Positions 25,147 through 30,878 of a stretch of DNA of 64,000 bases are shown one piece after another. The position numbers and the translations under genes are program-made. The stretch lies in NCBI RefSeq assembly GCF_900106535.1, contig NZ_FNOH01000002.1, positions 620,001-684,000 on the forward strand, written 5' to 3'. This DNA comes from Myxococcus xanthus (GTDB lineage Bacteria > Myxococcota > Myxococcia > Myxococcales > Myxococcaceae). Below the pieces are notes generated by a model. That model ran no database searches and was not told where the DNA came from. It saw nothing but the letters and a program-made list of their open reading frames with translations. The stretch's first letter is position 1, and every line of letters starts with the position of its first letter.

Positions 25147-25692
25147 TCAGGCGCCGAGCACTTCGCGGAGCACTTCCTGGAAGTAGTTGATGCTGCCCGT
25201 GTGCGTCTGGAAGTGCCTGGCGGACTGGTGGAGGCGCTGGATGACGGCCTCGAACTCCGCCTGACTGACGTCGCGCAGGGACATGTAGAGGCGGACGGCG
25301 CCCTGGAGGTGCGAGAAGAGCGGGTTGCGGTCGGTGCCGTCGGGGCGGCGCAGGAGGTGGCGGTAGAGCCGCTCGAATTCCTGGTCCGTCTCGGTGTTGC
25401 GCACGGCGCGGCAGTAGCCGGCGGCGGTGGCCTCGATGAGGAGGAAGAAGGGCTGGTACTCCGGCGGCGGCGCCTTGGCGAAGCTGGGGGGCTTCACGTC
25501 GCCCACGAAGAGCTGGGAGATGGGCTTGAGCGTTACATAGGCCAGCTGCTCGCCCGCGCGAATCTGGACGCGCTCCCCCACCGGACGCACGTGCTTGCCG
25601 TCCTCGTCCCACTCCACCGCCACGTACAGGCGCTCGGGCTGGTCCACCTTCACGCCCGCCTTCTCGAGCTCCGCCACTGCGTTCGCGTCCAT
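25147..25692 (-). CDS. conserved hypothetical protein, 181 aa
   Basis: The ATG at 25692 follows GGAGGAACGAAACGAG. The N-terminal part is charged and beta-rich (VEWDEDGKHVRPVGERVQI), the rest helical (LQGAVRLYMSLRDVSQAEF). No signal peptide or membrane span. I do not recognise a family. It sits upstream of the M16 pair on the same strand, and divergent from the PLD-like gene at 25895. Confidence 0.55.
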   Translation of the reverse strand: MDANAVAELEKAGVKVDQPERLYVAVEWDEDGKHVRPVGERVQIRAGEQLAYVTLKPISQLFVGDVKPPSFAKAPPPEYQPFFLLIEATAAGYCRAVRNTETDQEFERLYRHLLRRPDGTDRNPLFSHLQGAVRLYMSLRDVSQAEFEAVIQRLHQSARHFQTHTGSINYFQEVLREVLGA

Positions 25693-25894
25693 CTCGTTTC
25701 GTTCCTCCGGCTCCCTCTCTACCCTGCTCCGGGCAGCCCGTGCACCCGGCATCGTGGGGCAACGTCGGGAAGGAGGAGAAACGAGGGTGCCTTTCTCGCG
25801 CCCTGGAATTACTGGTATGCCAAGGAACTCCAAGAGCATCTGCGGCCACTGGTCTCCAGCCGCTGTGCGTCACCCCTGAGTCCCTGCCCCACCC

Positions 25895-26638
25895 ATGTTC
25901 GAGAACTTCTTTCGCTCACGCGATGCCGATGCGCTTGAGGTCTTGGGAAAAGTCGACACGGTCCGCCGACTTCACGGCCTCATCGATGAAGCCCAAAAGC
26001 ATGTCACGCTGATCAGTCCCTACGTCAGCATCGAGAAACTGCGAGACATTGAGCGCAAGATTCGTCAAGCCCTCGAACGGGAGGTGGCCGTGACCCTGGT
26101 CATCCGCGAGGGTGACGAGAGCACACGGGGCCCCTCACAGCAAGGCGTGGAACTCCTGGTCAGCCTCATGCAAGCGGGCATGCGCCTGTTCGTCGTCAGG
26201 GACCTGCACGCCAAGCTCTACTACTCCGAACGCCACGCTCTCATCACGTCGCTCAACCTCATTGAGTCTTCCTTCAACAACAGCATTGAAGTCGGCATCT
26301 GCATCTCAGCCGGTCGCGCCGAGTACGTGAGAATCAGCGACTTCATCGAGAGCGAAATCACCCCACACCGAAAGGAAGTCCCCTTCAAGCCGGCCACCGA
26401 GCCGCGTCGCAGGAGCGCCACGCCCGTCCCCCGGCACGCCACGCAGGGATTCTGCATCCGCTGCCGCGACGCAATCGGCTTCAACCCGGAGAGGCCCTAC
26501 TGCGACAGCGACTTCAACGTCTGGCGCCGATACAGCGACCCCACCTACGAAGACAACCATTGCCACCATTGCGGCATGGACTTCGCCGCCAGCAAGAACA
26601 AGCCCCTGTGCCGTAAGTGCTACGGAATGCTCAGGTAG
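25895..26638 (+). CDS. PLD-like protein with C-terminal Cys-rich zinc ribbons, 247 aa
   Basis: Residues about 15-150 form a phospholipase-D-like domain: HAK at 105-107 (HxK of the HKD motif), with Glu112 where Asp is expected and TSLN at 118-121 as the second part. The C-terminal part carries C187, C190, C203, C223, C226, C239 and C242, arranged as one or two zinc ribbons (CIRC...HCHHC...LCRKC). PLD-fold proteins include nucleases and DNA-binding endonucleases. Base composition is visibly AT-richer than the neighbours. It is followed after 13 bp by the giant fusion gene, so the two are probably co-transcribed. Confidence 0.75.
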   Translation: MFENFFRSRDADALEVLGKVDTVRRLHGLIDEAQKHVTLISPYVSIEKLRDIERKIRQALEREVAVTLVIREGDESTRGPSQQGVELLVSLMQAGMRLFVVRDLHAKLYYSERHALITSLNLIESSFNNSIEVGICISAGRAEYVRISDFIESEITPHRKEVPFKPATEPRRRSATPVPRHATQGFCIRCRDAIGFNPERPYCDSDFNVWRRYSDPTYEDNHCHHCGMDFAASKNKPLCRKCYGMLR

Positions 26639-26651
26639 CCTTCAGCGCCCC

Positions 26652-29600
26652 GTGACGATGAGCTCCCCGTTCCTGTCAGTCCCTGAATCGCAGTGGGTCG
26701 CGGCCAACACGTTCGCTTTCGCCATCCGGGATGGCTTCCCGGTGAGCCCGGGACATACGCTGGTGATTCCCCGGCGGCAGGTCGCGACCTGGTTCGACGC
26801 CTCGACCGAGGAACAGCGCGCCATCTTCGAGCTGGTGGACGAGGTGAAACGCGGGCTGGATGGCGAGCTGCATCCAGACGGGTACAACATCGGCATCAAC
26901 GTGGGCGCGGCGGCCGGCCAGACGGTGCTCCACCTGCATGTGCACGTCATCCCTCGCTTCCAGGGTGACATGGACGACCCTCGCGGCGGAGTCCGGCACG
27001 TCATTCCAGGCAAAGGCAACTACCTCGCCGGGCGAAACAAGCCCCTGGCCACGGGAGGCCTCGGCGACCCGTTCCTGCACCACCTGGAGCCGCTGTTCGC
27101 GGATGCGGTGGAGATTTCGGTCCTGGCGGCCTTCGTGCAAGACAGCGGACTGGAGCTGCTGCGCGAGTCCGTGGAAGCCGCGCTCACCCGGGGGGCGACG
27201 GTTCGCATCCTCACGGGTGACTATCTGGCCATCACCCAGGCGGATGCACTTCGACGGCTGCTCGACTGGATGGAAGAGGACGCCGCGCTCCAGGCGGAGC
27301 CAGGCCGTGGCCGTTTTGAAGCGCGTGTCGTGGAGGTGGAGAAGCTCCAACTCACGTCATTCCACCCGAAGTCCTGGCGCTTCCTTGGCACCGGGCTCGC
27401 GGTGGCCTACGTCGGCTCGAGCAACATCTCGCGCGCCGCCTTGAAGACGGGCGTCGAATGGAACCTGCGCGTCGAGCGGGACCGGGACCCGCAGGCCTGG
27501 AACGAGGTGGTGGATGCATTCGAGGGCTGGTGGAGCCGGGCCTCCCCCTTGGACGCAAATTGGGTCGAGCAATACGCTCGCCGCGCACCAGCGGCCCGAC
27601 TGCGCCTCCCGGCAGGTGAGACGGAACCAGAAGCCCCCTTGCCCCGTCGCGAGCCACACAGCCTGCAGCGTCAGGCGCTCGGTGCGCTCGCGCGTGGCCG
27701 GCGCGAGGGACGGCAACGCGCACTGGTCGTCCTCGCGACGGGCCTGGGGAAGACCCTGCTCGCGGCGCTCGACGTGGAACAGTTCAACCAGGAACGGGGA
27801 CGGGCGAGCCGCGTGCTGTTCCTCGCGCACCGGGAAGAGCTCCTCGTCCAGGCAGCGGAGACGTTCCGTCGTCAGCAGCACCACCTCCGATTCGGCTGGT
27901 ACGTGGGGCAACGCGCGCAGCTCGTGGGCGACGTGGTCTTCGCCTCGGTGCAGAAGCTCTCGCGGCCAGAAGACCTTCACGCGCTCCGCCTCGCGGCCGC
28001 GTTCGACTACGTCATCGTGGACGAGGTCCACCACGCCACGGCGGCGAGCTACCGGTCCATCCTCGCCTGCGTGGAGCCCGCATTCATTCTCGGGCTCACG
28101 GCGACACCGGAGCGCGCTGACGAGGGCGATGTGCTCGGCCTCTTCGATGACCACCTCGCCTGGCGCTCGGACCTTGGAGAAGGCATCCAGGAGGGACTGC
28201 TCGCACCGTTCGAGTACTTCGGGCTCAAGGACACCGTGCCCTACGAGAACATCCCCTGGAAGAGCCGCCGCTTCGACGTGGCGCTGCTGACCCAGGCGGT
28301 TGAGACGGAAGCACGTATGCGGACACTGTGGCGTGCGTGGCAGAAGCATCCCGCAAGCCGCACGCTCGTGTTCTGCTGCTCCATCTCCCATGCCCACTTC
28401 GTCCAACAATGGCTGGGAGGCCAGGGGATTCGCGCCGTGGCTGTCCACGCCGGGGCTGGCTCAGCGGACCGCGCCCAGTCGCTGCGCCAGCTCGCGAATG
28501 GCACGCTGGATGCCATCTGCGCAGTGGACCTGTTCAACGAAGGCGTCGACGTCCCGAGCATCGACCGCGTGGTGATGCTGCGCCCCACGGAGTCCCCCGT
28601 CGTTTTCCTCCAGCAGCTCGGGCGAGGGCTGCGAAAGGCCAAGGGAAAAGAGCGGGTCATCCTCATCGACTTCGTCGGGAATCACCGGCTGTTTCTCGAC
28701 CGGCTCCGAACCCTGCTGGCCGTGGGTAAGCCTCCGGTCTCCCTGCGTGACTTTCTCACCTCGGACCGGCAACCCGCGCTGCCTGCTGGCTGCACCGTGG
28801 AAGTGGAGCTCGAAGCCAAGGAGATGCTCCGGCACTTCCTCTCCGGAGGGGGGCAGGAGGTCGAGCGTGTCTACCGCGAGCTGCGCGATGCACGGGGACT
28901 GCGGCCCACCATCGGAGAACTCTACCGTCGTGGGTATTCACCCGCGACGCTGCGCAAGGCGCACCCGGGGTGGTTCGATTTCGTGAGGTCGGAGGGCGAC
29001 CTGACGGACGGCGAGGCTCGGACCCTCGACAAAGGCCGCGACTGGTTCAAGGAGCTCGAGCTCGCGAACATGAGCCAGTGCTTCCAGATGGTCGTACTGG
29101 AAGCGCTGCTCGAAGCCGATGCCCTGGAACAGGGGCTGCCGCTGCCCGAGCTTGCCCGGCGATGCCTGGCCATTCTCCAACGCTCCCCCGAGTTGCTCCG
29201 GGACCTCGAAGCAGTCAAGGCCCTGGGCGACCCACGGCTCCCGAATCCCGCCCGGTTCCTCACGTACTGGAAGTCGAACCCCATAGAGGCGTGGACGAAG
29301 GGCGGGAAGTGGTTCCGCGTCGAGGAAGAGCGGTTCATCCCTCGCCTTCCCATGGCCCCATCGACCCAGAAGTCCTTCGAGGCGATGACTCGCGAGCTGG
29401 TGGACTACCGGCTCGCACAGTATCGGCGCCGCCAACAGGCGCAGGCGCAGGACTCCGCCTTTGATGCGAGGGTCATCTCGAACAGCCGGGGCCCCATCCT
29501 CAAGCTCCCGGAGCGGAGTGCGCGCTCGGACCTGCCCCTGGGAACGACAGCGGTCCGGCTCGACGATGGAGCGCGCTGGCATTTCGACTTCGTGAAGATT

Positions 29601-30494
29601 GCCGTCAACGTCGCGCGACCCGATGGCGCGAAACAGAATCAACTGCCGGACCTCTTGCGCCAATGGTTTGGCCCCACCGCGGGAATGCCGGGCACGGCCT
29701 TTCGCGTCCGGTTCACGCTCGGCCCTGACGGGTGGAGCGCGGCCCCGGTTCAGGCCGAGCCGAGCCCCCTCGCGCCATGGGGGACACTGGTCGCATTTCC
29801 CAGCCTGCGCGCGGCCGCGGGCGCCGTGGAGCACCCCATCTCAATCGACCAGGCTCCGGAAGCGGCGAGGGTCCGCCTTCCGAGCCGAGTGCAAGGCGAA
29901 GGGCTGTTCGCGGTGCGCGCGTCTGGTGATTCCATGGACGGAGGCGCGCACCCCATCCGCGATGGTGACTGGCTGGTGATGCGCGACGCGAAAGCCGCGG
30001 GGGCGGGGCGCCTGGATGGGAGGGTGGCCCTCGTCCAGGTCCCCGACCCAATCACAGGCTTCCGCTACCAGGTGAAGCGGCTCGTCCGGCAAGACGGGCA
30101 CTGGCTGCTCCGCTCCGACAATCCCCTGCGTGAGTCCTTCCAGGCTGGTGAAGCGACCTCCCCCGTCGCCCTGGTCGTCGAGGTCATTCCACCCGAACGG
30201 CTGGCACCTCCTCTGGGCACGACGCTCACGGAGGAGCAGCTCAGCTCCCACTTCGGATTGAGCACGGCGCCCAGAACGGGGCGCCATGAAGGCCACCTGT
30301 TCCTGTTCATCAAGGACGCGCAAGCCTTCACCTCACCCGGCCGCCTGGCGCTGCGCGTCCCAGACCACCACCCCAGTGAAACAGCCTTCGTGTTCACACA
30401 GGAGACCGCGTCCGGTGACTGGACCTACCAGGGAGCCGCTGTCTGGCGAGACGATGAAGACCGGTGGGCCCTGGAGCTCCCCAGGTCCGGGTGA
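26652..30494 (+). CDS. HIT + PLD-like + SF2 helicase + S24-type fusion protein, 1280 aa
   Basis: Four modules are visible. (1) HIT domain 1-125, with HLHVHVIPR at 94-102 (middle His96 nucleophile by analogy). (2) PLD-like region about 140-300, with H238 and K240 (HPK) and GSSN at 255-258. (3) SF2 helicase about 330-700: ATGLGKT (362-368, Walker A), DEVH (457-460), TATP (483-486), QLGRGLRK (655-662, motif VI). (4) S24/LexA-type domain about 1050-1180, with GDSM (Ser1094) and Lys1142. The first start is GTG 26652, followed by ATG at 26658; no strong ribosome site. PLD-helicase proteins of this kind are often annotated as DUF3427 helicases. The HIT and S24 domains on one polypeptide are unusual. 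Confidence 0.85.
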   Translation: MTMSSPFLSVPESQWVAANTFAFAIRDGFPVSPGHTLVIPRRQVATWFDASTEEQRAIFELVDEVKRGLDGELHPDGYNIGINVGAAAGQTVLHLHVHVIPRFQGDMDDPRGGVRHVIPGKGNYLAGRNKPLATGGLGDPFLHHLEPLFADAVEISVLAAFVQDSGLELLRESVEAALTRGATVRILTGDYLAITQADALRRLLDWMEEDAALQAEPGRGRFEARVVEVEKLQLTSFHPKSWRFLGTGLAVAYVGSSNISRAALKTGVEWNLRVERDRDPQAWNEVVDAFEGWWSRASPLDANWVEQYARRAPAARLRLPAGETEPEAPLPRREPHSLQRQALGALARGRREGRQRALVVLATGLGKTLLAALDVEQFNQERGRASRVLFLAHREELLVQAAETFRRQQHHLRFGWYVGQRAQLVGDVVFASVQKLSRPEDLHALRLAAAFDYVIVDEVHHATAASYRSILACVEPAFILGLTATPERADEGDVLGLFDDHLAWRSDLGEGIQEGLLAPFEYFGLKDTVPYENIPWKSRRFDVALLTQAVETEARMRTLWRAWQKHPASRTLVFCCSISHAHFVQQWLGGQGIRAVAVHAGAGSADRAQSLRQLANGTLDAICAVDLFNEGVDVPSIDRVVMLRPTESPVVFLQQLGRGLRKAKGKERVILIDFVGNHRLFLDRLRTLLAVGKPPVSLRDFLTSDRQPALPAGCTVEVELEAKEMLRHFLSGGGQEVERVYRELRDARGLRPTIGELYRRGYSPATLRKAHPGWFDFVRSEGDLTDGEARTLDKGRDWFKELELANMSQCFQMVVLEALLEADALEQGLPLPELARRCLAILQRSPELLRDLEAVKALGDPRLPNPARFLTYWKSNPIEAWTKGGKWFRVEEERFIPRLPMAPSTQKSFEAMTRELVDYRLAQYRRRQQAQAQDSAFDARVISNSRGPILKLPERSARSDLPLGTTAVRLDDGARWHFDFVKIAVNVARPDGAKQNQLPDLLRQWFGPTAGMPGTAFRVRFTLGPDGWSAAPVQAEPSPLAPWGTLVAFPSLRAAAGAVEHPISIDQAPEAARVRLPSRVQGEGLFAVRASGDSMDGGAHPIRDGDWLVMRDAKAAGAGRLDGRVALVQVPDPITGFRYQVKRLVRQDGHWLLRSDNPLRESFQAGEATSPVALVVEVIPPERLAPPLGTTLTEEQLSSHFGLSTAPRTGRHEGHLFLFIKDAQAFTSPGRLALRVPDHHPSETAFVFTQETASGDWTYQGAAVWRDDEDRWALELPRSG

Positions 30495-30805
30495 GCCTCC
30501 GTCCAAGCGCGGGGGGCCGCCGAGGGTACGCCCCATCACGCACCTCCAGCCGCGCCGAAGCGCAGCAGCGCCAGCGATTCCCGGGCCCCGCGTCCGTGTC
30601 CCGCTCGATGGGGACGACGAAGCGAGAACAAGAGGACTCGCGGCTGCCCAGCAGCCCGGGAAGGGCAGCGCGTAGAGGCTCAGAGTTCCGACAGGCGATT
30701 CTCCACGGGCGCGCCCGTCAGCGGGACGCGCGGGCCCGCGTATTGGGCGCCGGAAACGACAAAGGCCTCTGGACTTTGGGTCCAGAGGCCTTCATCTCCG
30801 CTAAG
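30495..30805. other. 311-bp region between the fusion gene and tRNA-Phe
   Basis: It holds the tRNA terminator (30762-30792) and no clear gene. The 3' end of the tRNA was compared by eye with the stretch left of 25895 for an attachment-site duplication and none was found. A 26-codon minus-strand frame ending at 30680 could be a gene tail but is too short to claim. Confidence 0.4.
30756..30792 (-). terminator. rho-independent terminator of tRNA-Phe
   Basis: AAGGCCTCTGGAC (30762-30774) and GTCCAGAGGCCTT (30780-30792) form a perfect 13-bp stem with a five-base loop. Read on the minus strand it follows the tRNA 3' end by 13 bases and is followed by TGTCGTTT. Confidence 0.85.
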
Positions 30806-30878
30806 TGCCCAGGGGCGGAATCGAACCACCGACACGGGGATTTTCAATCCCCTGCTCTACCGACTGAGCTACCTGGGC
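30806..30878 (-). tRNA. tRNA-Phe (GAA)
   Basis: The 73-base cloverleaf reads GCCCAGG...CCTGGGC at the acceptor stem, with AGCTCAGTCGGTAGAGC as D arm, an anticodon stem GGGGA/TCCCC with loop TTGAAAA (anticodon GAA at 30843-30845 complement) and the T arm GGTTCGATTCC. The discriminator base is A and CCA is not encoded. The 3' end faces the HIT-PLD-helicase gene, a common placing for mobile elements. Confidence 0.97.

Follow-up and report, generated by a model that had tools for sequence, protein, structure and literature searches.

A window of 64,000 nucleotides from Myxococcus xanthus (RefSeq assembly GCF_900106535.1, contig NZ_FNOH01000002.1, positions 620,001 to 684,000 of the forward strand; window coordinates are used below) contains a gene for a 1280-residue protein, here called gene 2 (ORF2, 26652..30494, + strand, GTG start), in which HIT, PLD, SF2 motor, coupler, B3-like, S24, and reduced SRA domains follow one another. 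On balance, we regard gene 2 as an ATP-dependent PLD restriction enzyme of the SauUSI kind that resides in a defense hotspot at tRNA-Phe and carries a RecA-responsive self-cleavage switch, which is likelier to be a brake than an arming step. The gene lies 13 bp downstream of gene 1 (ORF1, 25895..26638, + strand, 247 residues), and both frames are open. An earlier note, made by a model from the DNA letters of this stretch, had described two genes with this spacing and a second product of 1280 residues, and the coordinates of both frames bore it out. The motifs listed there were likewise found in place: HLHVHVIPR at residues 94 to 102, GSSN at 255 to 258, ATGLGKT at 362 to 368, DEVH at 457 to 460, TATP at 483 to 486, and QLGRGLRK at 655 to 662, with H238 and K240 within SFHPKSW (236 to 242), Ser1094 in SGDSMDGG, and Lys1142 in YQVKRL. 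The HIT head, PLD nuclease, SF2 motor, and S24 domain are thus joined on one chain with all catalytic motifs intact. An ATG at 26658 may be the true start of gene 2, since many homologs align only from residue 3.

The nuclease and motor parts of gene 2 were compared with known families. Pfam matched PLDc_2 (PF13091) at residues 171 to 294 (27162..27533), where H238, K240, S256, and N258 are located, and it matched ResIII (residues 334 to 488, E 3.8e-33) and Helicase_C (residues 559 to 661, E 2.2e-14) in the SF2 motor (residues 334 to 661, 27651..28634). The mREase_IV profile of PADLOC covered residues 149 to 726 (E 1.4e-91), and the sequence of the SauUSI structure 7clg matched residues 224 to 778 (E 5.3e-72). 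An excerpt of the SauUSI report (PMC7913695) places a PLD nuclease at residues 1 to 191, an ATPase at 221 to 617, a coupler at 618 to 805, and a target reader with an SRA fold at 806 to 953, and describes an enzyme that translocates with ATP and shreds DNA lying between targets. Gene 2 follows this domain order from residue ~136 onward; its coupler-like region (residues 691 to 930, 28722..29441), homologous across relatives, takes the place between motor and readers that the excerpt gives for SauUSI. We then aligned 34 sequences, including the window protein and many close relatives of one another, from which a total of 12 fragments, split chains, or different chains had been removed beforehand. 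The PLD, Walker, and DEVH residues were conserved in 34/34 sequences and the HIT triad in all 30 rows with a recognized HIT head, which argues that the catalytic motifs are not due to chance. Judged by these sequence matches, the gene 2 core is best classed as a SauUSI-type, ATP-dependent Type IV restriction enzyme; it would work like SauUSI, yet we do not class it as a 5-methylcytosine (5mC)-dependent enzyme. The earlier reading of a DNA-degrading, defense-type enzyme is supported by this core, and the statement that no named defense system could be recognized no longer holds.

The S24 domain together with its cleavage segment spans residues 1044 to 1182 (29781..30197). Pfam matched Peptidase_S24 (PF00717) at residues 1055 to 1159 (E 2.3e-7). 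For a structural comparison, residues 929 to 1280 were modeled with AlphaFold2 from a 25-sequence alignment (mean pLDDT of 89.5), and the model was compared with solved structures. Residues 1044 to 1182 matched the RecA-bound lambda repressor CI (8gmu) with a Z score of 14.0 (117 aligned residues, rmsd of 2.3), and LexA and UmuD were also matched. Comparison with hyper-cleavable CI fragments that hold the cleavage region gave a Z score of 13.6. All 11 Foldseek matches at E 0.001 or better were CI or LexA, and LexA was also the top match when the profile of alignment A1 was searched against PDB sequences (E 0.002). The S24 part proposed in the earlier note is therefore real at the level of its fold.

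Known members of the LexA/UmuD type carry an Ala-Gly or Cys-Gly pair about 34 to 38 residues before the Ser. In gene 2, the predicted self-cleavage site is Ala1056-Gly1057 within FPSLRAAAG (29817..29822), 37 residues upstream of Ser1094 (codon 29931-29933), which forms the S24 dyad with Lys1142 (codon 30075-30077). An Ala-Gly or Cys-Gly site was present in 30 of the 31 S24 rows that span this position (34 rows in total; Cys-Gly in three relatives) and preceded the Ser by 34 to 37 residues in these 30 rows. The lone exception, L148, has lost the site, the Ser, and the Lys together. The Ser column held S in 33/34 rows, with the S of L153 deriving from a rearranged piece, and Lys was found at column 1142 or the next one in 31/34 rows; besides L148, it was absent from L152, which reaches a contig end, and from the rearranged L153. 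These counts overstate the independence of the rows, because many of the 34 are closely related. Among 19 chosen rows, A1055, G1057, F1086, R1089, G1092, S1094, M1095, G1097, and G1098 were all kept in 19/19, while positions 1059 to 1067 varied. The S24 part thus looks like a working autoprotease, for which cleavage is predicted. The host carries RecA, which was matched twice in full and once in part, as well as two more S24 proteins. Now that a LexA-type cleavage site has been located and S24 modules are present on further proteins (see below), the protease switch suggested in the earlier note has become the best reading of this domain.

The model also covered the regions on both sides of the S24 domain. 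For residues 932 to 1033 (29445..29750), B3 domains or B3-bearing DNA-binding domains made up 17 of the 50 matches listed (Z scores of 5.8 to 7.2), among them the B3 domain of R.NgoAVII with its cognate DNA (4rd5; Z score of 7.0, 96 aligned residues, rmsd of 3.0). No B3 match at the sequence level was obtained in Pfam with the window protein or in PDB with the A1 profile. The assignment to the DNA-reading B3 type is hence made at the fold level and is of middling strength. Residues 1186 to 1277 (30207..30482) matched the SRA reader of SauUSI (7clg, residues 803 to 942) with a Z score of 8.3 (92 aligned residues, rmsd of 2.6). Pfam DUF3427 was matched in the relatives L021 and L154 and was not matched in the window protein. 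According to a passage of the SauUSI report (PMC7913695), Asp858 and Trp868 belong to the methylcytosine pocket. The YxDxF..W stretch that holds their equivalents, as placed by an alignment of L021 with SauUSI, is retained in L021, L022, L154, L155, and L157. The window protein lacks it, and so does every other S24-bearing row of alignment A1 extending this far apart from L154 and L155; we therefore refer to the domain of the window protein as a reduced SRA.

Relatives that differ in these domains suggest a possible course of assembly for the chain. HIT-PLD-SF2-B3-SRA proteins without S24 were found in genomes G034 (L021, with its domains assigned by Pfam and its B3 by alignment) and G162 (L157), and in G037 (L022) such a protein is split over two frames. 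In G186 (L154), an S24 domain is inserted between B3 and an intact SRA, with Pfam matches to HIT, S24, and DUF3427, and a piece from G185 (L155), as aligned, has its C-terminal domains arranged in this way too. A series from the S24-less form through insertion of S24 next to an intact SRA to the reduced SRA of Myxococcus may be proposed, with a putative order of steps read from the alignments. A B3-S24-SRA query matched 35 of 195 genomes in a phylum search, some of them over the B3-like part only. The sole match of this query among plasmids was a LexA, and the full cassette was therefore unseen in the plasmid collection. A 520-residue protein of G107 (L194:1265-2827) combines a TIR domain with SRA/DUF3427 (Pfam E 4e-36 and 2e-23) and is possibly a TIR effector that senses modified bases.

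The HIT head (residues 13 to 104, 26688..26963) was matched by PF01230 (E 1e-23) and contains the HxHxH triad (H94/H96/H98) of FHIT/HINT-type HIT hydrolases, which act on dinucleoside polyphosphates or phosphoramidates, so this part of the earlier description also stood. It resembles Ap4A phosphorylase and FHIT proteins. We consider a nucleotide-acting enzyme at least as plausible a role as the nucleotide sensor proposed in the earlier note. Of 11 annotated plasmid loci, picked from the top of the match list and not at random, three (Hymenobacter canadensis, Lactiplantibacillus, and Latilactobacillus) had a NUDIX gene immediately upstream of their SauUSI-like gene, with Pfam E values of 1e-16 or lower. 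A figure legend (PMC7641849) reports MutT homologs adjoining SauUSI homologs in Streptococcus. These two observations argue for a nucleotide hydrolase as a recurrent companion of SauUSI relatives. A NUDIX query gave no match at E 1e-3 among the ORFs of the loci retrieved up to then, so the NUDIX companion rests on the three plasmid records and the legend. Close free-standing relatives of the HIT head adjoin genes of the HNH nuclease type in Aromatoleum, Polaromonas, Hymenobacter, G030, G051, and Persicobacter, where the neighbor shares 67% identity with the HNH protein of Hymenobacter. Such HIT+HNH two-gene neighborhoods were observed at L080:6004-7376, L081:5974-7441, L077:2984-4369, L084:4975-6363, L034:9128-10707, and L026:12-1573, and in L077 and L034 they lie near a SauUSI-like gene. 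The records of Jeotgalibacillus, Pontibacillus, and Rhizobium that were opened showed no HNH-type neighbor of the free-standing HIT gene; that of Paraburkholderia carried no annotation. The idea that the HIT-linked HNH proteins contain a B3-like domain was dropped after a B3-like query gave no match.

The position of gene 2 in the genus was followed in 27 genomes. Searches were scored on the best first-look candidates (for gene 2 and its parts, usually 10 or 11 in each genome), and absences are only as good as this scoring. Gene 2 was found at full length in 15/27 genomes and, as far as contigs reach, in all 15 within an interval that ends at tRNA-Phe; G004 had the tRNA side alone on its contig, and in G018 the flank gene and the tRNA side were visible and the M16 genes were not. 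The order of this hotspot is M16 peptidases, flank gene, cargo, tRNA-Phe, and sigma factor. In the window, the left flank gene (25147..25839, - strand, 230 residues), which forms one border in most genus genomes, and tRNA-Phe at the right border (30805..30878, - strand) enclose genes 1 and 2 as the sole called genes; searches with the flank gene and with the tRNA side each matched 27/27 genomes. In G022, G009, G026, and G020, gene 2 sits on the other side of the flank gene, between it and the M16 genes, and in G010 and G016 the site is nearly empty, with less than 150 bp from flank gene to tRNA. Identity of gene 2 and of the flank gene correlated across 14 genomes (Spearman 0.85), which fits inheritance inside the genus with repeated loss. 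Decayed pieces of gene 2 were observed in G012 and, outside the genus, in G141. The hotspot of G012 that holds its HIT piece also contains a diverged tRNA-Phe-like copy (C47:265882-265956, 83%) ~0.8 kb from the real tRNA, possibly left by integration at the tRNA. A contig scan for gene 2 returned three loci, all from Myxococcus: M. xanthus AM003 (95%), M. vastator (92%), and Myxococcus sp. CA023 (97%). No place covering 80% of gene 2 was found in the plasmid search or the phage search.

The cargo of other genomes at this site includes defense genes. Six of 20 cargo proteins matched PADLOC defense models at 1e-5 or better (DpdE, DpdC, DpdA, DpdB, a Gabija/DRT-like helicase, and PDC-M26A), and 14/20 matched none. 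Among 22 hotspot loci, 9 contained a DpdE-like protein or a relative of it (partial or short in two cases), and three contained DpdA. Genome G015 carries gene 2 together with a whole DpdE-like gene at the place where the window has only a frameshifted remnant (30586..30748, - strand; matched in tblastn by the protein of G015 at E 2e-13, as three pieces that each lie in a different frame), and G021 keeps the whole gene too. The stretch at 30568-30739 had been considered as a dispersed repeat; this was ruled out, as it represents the DpdE-like remnant. In G007, G008, G013, and G014, gene 2 adjoins a PDC-M26A gene and a DUF2357-PD-(D/E)XK gene. Defense neighbors, for which the earlier note had advised a search, are thus present in the hotspot of relatives.

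By analogy to SauUSI, the reader domains of gene 2 (the B3-like domain as an added second DNA reader, the SRA, or both) would locate the target DNA, the SF2 motor would translocate, and dimerized PLD domains would shred the DNA. The HIT head would probably hydrolyze a nucleotide tied to infection or to the breakdown of DNA, a role that the NUDIX genes beside other SauUSI relatives may share. RecA on single-stranded DNA would contact the S24 domain and induce a cut between Ala1056 and Gly1057, which would release the S24-SRA tail from the body formed by nuclease, motor, and B3. As a brake, this cut would turn restriction off when RecA filaments signal self-damage. We consider a brake more likely than an arming step by analogy with the alleviation of EcoKI restriction. 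A weak hint in the same direction came from G108, in which an insertion with a 479-residue ORF splits gene 2 after about residue 1077, leaving an open frame of 1094 residues without the S24 core.

Several observations weigh against this reading. S24 folds can be inert or serve dimerization alone. No match to the SOS box consensus was found near 25840-25895, and the window as a whole held 7 where about 22 were expected; a promoter scan gave nothing useful. The PLDc_2 match (E 4.5e-5) is by itself below the family cut-off, and a B3 match at a Z score of ~7 could reflect a chance arrangement, its weight coming from the 17 B3-type rows. Since the SRA pocket stretch is gone, dependence on 5-methylcytosine may not carry over to the window protein. 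The HIT head looks decayed in relatives from Paracoccus and Rhodobacter, as judged by eye and from the triad columns, and a Pfam scan of two of them (L074 and L076) showed no HIT; HIT chemistry thus appears dispensable in some members. No NUDIX gene was found directly upstream in 8 of the 11 plasmid loci. Finally, conserved C-terminal extensions (YLEGTP..STRWIDT) without an assigned role continue for 130 to 300 residues past the reduced SRA in L006, L008, L019, L020, L141, and L144-L147. Pfam gave no match to the three that were scanned (L006, L019, and L145). The window protein has no such extension, and a search for a remnant of it in the window gave nothing convincing (best E 0.05).

The same dyad, site, and S24 fold would also fit a switch of the opposite direction, in which the S24-SRA tail holds the enzyme inactive until RecA filaments formed during infection trigger self-cleavage, releasing an active B3-guided nuclease for attack or cell death. 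LexA-type cleavage usually switches a programme on, and the reduced SRA suggests that the tail has ceased to function as a reader and might serve as a lid. However, the body left in G108 would then be constantly armed, which might be lethal; yet it is perhaps unexpressed, and its truncation point differs from the predicted site. We regard arming as possible but clearly less probable than the brake. Slightly less favored still is a structural or dimerization role of a noncleaving S24 domain, which would make gene 2 a standard Type IV enzyme like SauUSI whose extra domains are ornamental. The modest E value of the Pfam match (2.3e-7) and the retention of a dead S24 domain in another protein, L148, fit this explanation. 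A purely structural domain, however, need not preserve a dyad or a scissile bond, whereas Ser, Lys, and the Ala/Cys-Gly site are kept together where all are covered and are lost together in the single exception.

Gene 1 was analyzed as a potential partner of gene 2. Its product combines a PLD fold (PLDc_2, E 6.8e-11) with a Cys-rich tail resembling a double zinc ribbon, for which the Pfam match was weak (E 0.0027) and under the cut-off. As the earlier note had remarked, gene 1 is AT-richer than gene 2 (GC content of 60.3% versus 67.5%) and has seven Cys in its tail (187, 190, 203, 223, 226, 239, and 242); C136 is found in addition, and there is a single HxK motif, H105-K107. An alignment of nine rows showed H105, K107, N121, C190, C203, C223, C226, C239, and C242 to be invariant. 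The N-terminal PLD half of an AlphaFold2 model (pLDDT of 80) matched Nuc (1byr; Z score of 15.6, 143 aligned residues, rmsd of 2.7) and SauUSI (Z score of 15.9, 156 aligned residues, rmsd of 3.4), and a search of gene 1 against PDB sequences gave nothing below E 0.4. Assignment to DrmC of DISARM was rejected (best PADLOC DrmC match at E 8e-9; 41.1 bits against a curated cut-off of 133), as was a DISARM locus, since genes 1 and 2 are the only ones in the window interval from the flank gene to tRNA-Phe. Among the scanned cargo, DrmD matched only the DpdE-like protein of G021, far more weakly than did DpdE.

If genes 1 and 2 formed one two-gene defense system, the PLD-zinc-ribbon protein would be a required partner. 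The two genes share a strand and a 13-bp spacing, and gene 1 adjoins gene 2 in G000, G001, G018, and G023; a further neighboring pair, convergent and a few bases apart, was found in G162. Yet no gene 1 adjoins gene 2 in 11 of the 15 genus genomes that have gene 2, and at the same hotspot G015 keeps gene 2 without gene 1, while G017 keeps a gene 1 homolog (64%) without gene 2. Moreover, unrelated genes end up side by side in defense hotspots. Gene 1 is therefore a separable neighbor and not an obligate part, and we judge a joint system improbable, although the convergent pair in G162 may point to a looser functional link. The earlier description of a two-gene module does not stand as a conserved unit; nor do the genes behave as a fixed core set, with gene 2 in 15/27 genomes and gene 1 beside only four of those 15. 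Least likely by far is a DNA repair or remodeling factor akin to RadD or Ap4A metabolism: the motor does match a RadD profile (E 8.8e-28) and the HIT head is similar to Ap4A phosphorylase and FHIT proteins, but the mREase_IV and SauUSI matches are stronger, the domain order is identical to that of SauUSI, and the patchy presence, the decayed copies in G012 and G141, and the defense hotspot speak against it.

S24 modules were also observed on other proteins, which supports a protease switch that extends beyond a single gene. A plasmid of Pseudoalteromonas sp. CuT4-3 encodes a PLD-SF2 enzyme with an S24 end (L079:3977-6928) near an ABC-three-component system; it has Cys-Gly 36 residues before the Ser and no HIT or DUF3427 match. 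An 859-residue UvrD-type helicase protein of G117 (L192:2815-5394), with a relative in G118 (L193), ends in an S24 domain (E 3e-13) whose RAAAG motif places G732 37 residues before Ser769, the same spacing as in the window protein; its start resembles a nuclease by eye. The protein L148 (L148:1831-5130, G143; 1100 residues) joins a nucleoside phosphorylase domain, a protein kinase resembling PD-T4-6 of PADLOC, a B3-like domain, the dead S24 domain, a reduced SRA, and a C-terminal extension, and is a case of the portable reader cassette on a different effector. The LexA-type S24 domain might be a portable, RecA-coupled switch that was attached several times to unrelated defense effectors (HIT-PLD-SF2-B3 enzymes, PLD-SF2 enzymes, the UvrD-type helicase protein, and, in dead form, the phosphorylase-kinase protein), as a so far unrecognized layer of control through which signals from single-stranded DNA would tune immunity directly, bypassing transcription; we put this forward tentatively, at somewhat less than even odds.

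From the PLD nuclease through the SF2 motor and coupler to the C-terminal SRA-fold domain, gene 2 is arranged like SauUSI, but the HIT, B3-like, and S24 domains are added and the SRA pocket stretch is lost. A portion of the report on R.NgoAVII and R.CglI (PMC4267653) describes PLD-B3 nucleases working with a DEAD-family ATPase. As in gene 2, a PLD nuclease is joined to B3 and driven by an ATPase; there, however, going by the same portion, the ATPase is a protein of its own and the system includes a C5 methyltransferase, whereas gene 2 has motor and nuclease on one chain and shares its interval of the window with gene 1 alone. The S24 domain of gene 2 has the fold, Ser-Lys dyad, and Ala-Gly site in common with LexA, UmuD, and lambda CI, which are repressors or a polymerase subunit, whereas it sits inside a restriction enzyme. 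A search of literature titles and abstract openings, outside of which most subscription papers lie, gave no fusion of HIT or S24 to SauUSI, a weak absence. The SauUSI kind is already known; new are the HIT head, the second reader, and the inserted LexA-type S24 domain.

DNA-shredding restriction enzymes must spare their own host. For EcoKI, a partial account (PMC11109961) describes alleviation through removal of the enzyme by ClpXP, with the SOS response not required. The purpose, protection of the host from its own restriction enzyme, may be the same for gene 2, whose proposed control would be a built-in autoprotease instead of ClpXP. If so, RecA filaments would act on a restriction enzyme directly and posttranslationally, a route distinct from the one by which ClpXP alleviates EcoKI restriction. 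The HIT head, like the NUDIX genes next to some other SauUSI relatives, also makes one ask what use such enzymes have for a nucleotide hydrolase nearby. These results suggest that gene 2 is a DNA defense enzyme tied directly to the DNA damage alarm of the cell and indicate a wider class of S24-tailed defense proteins.

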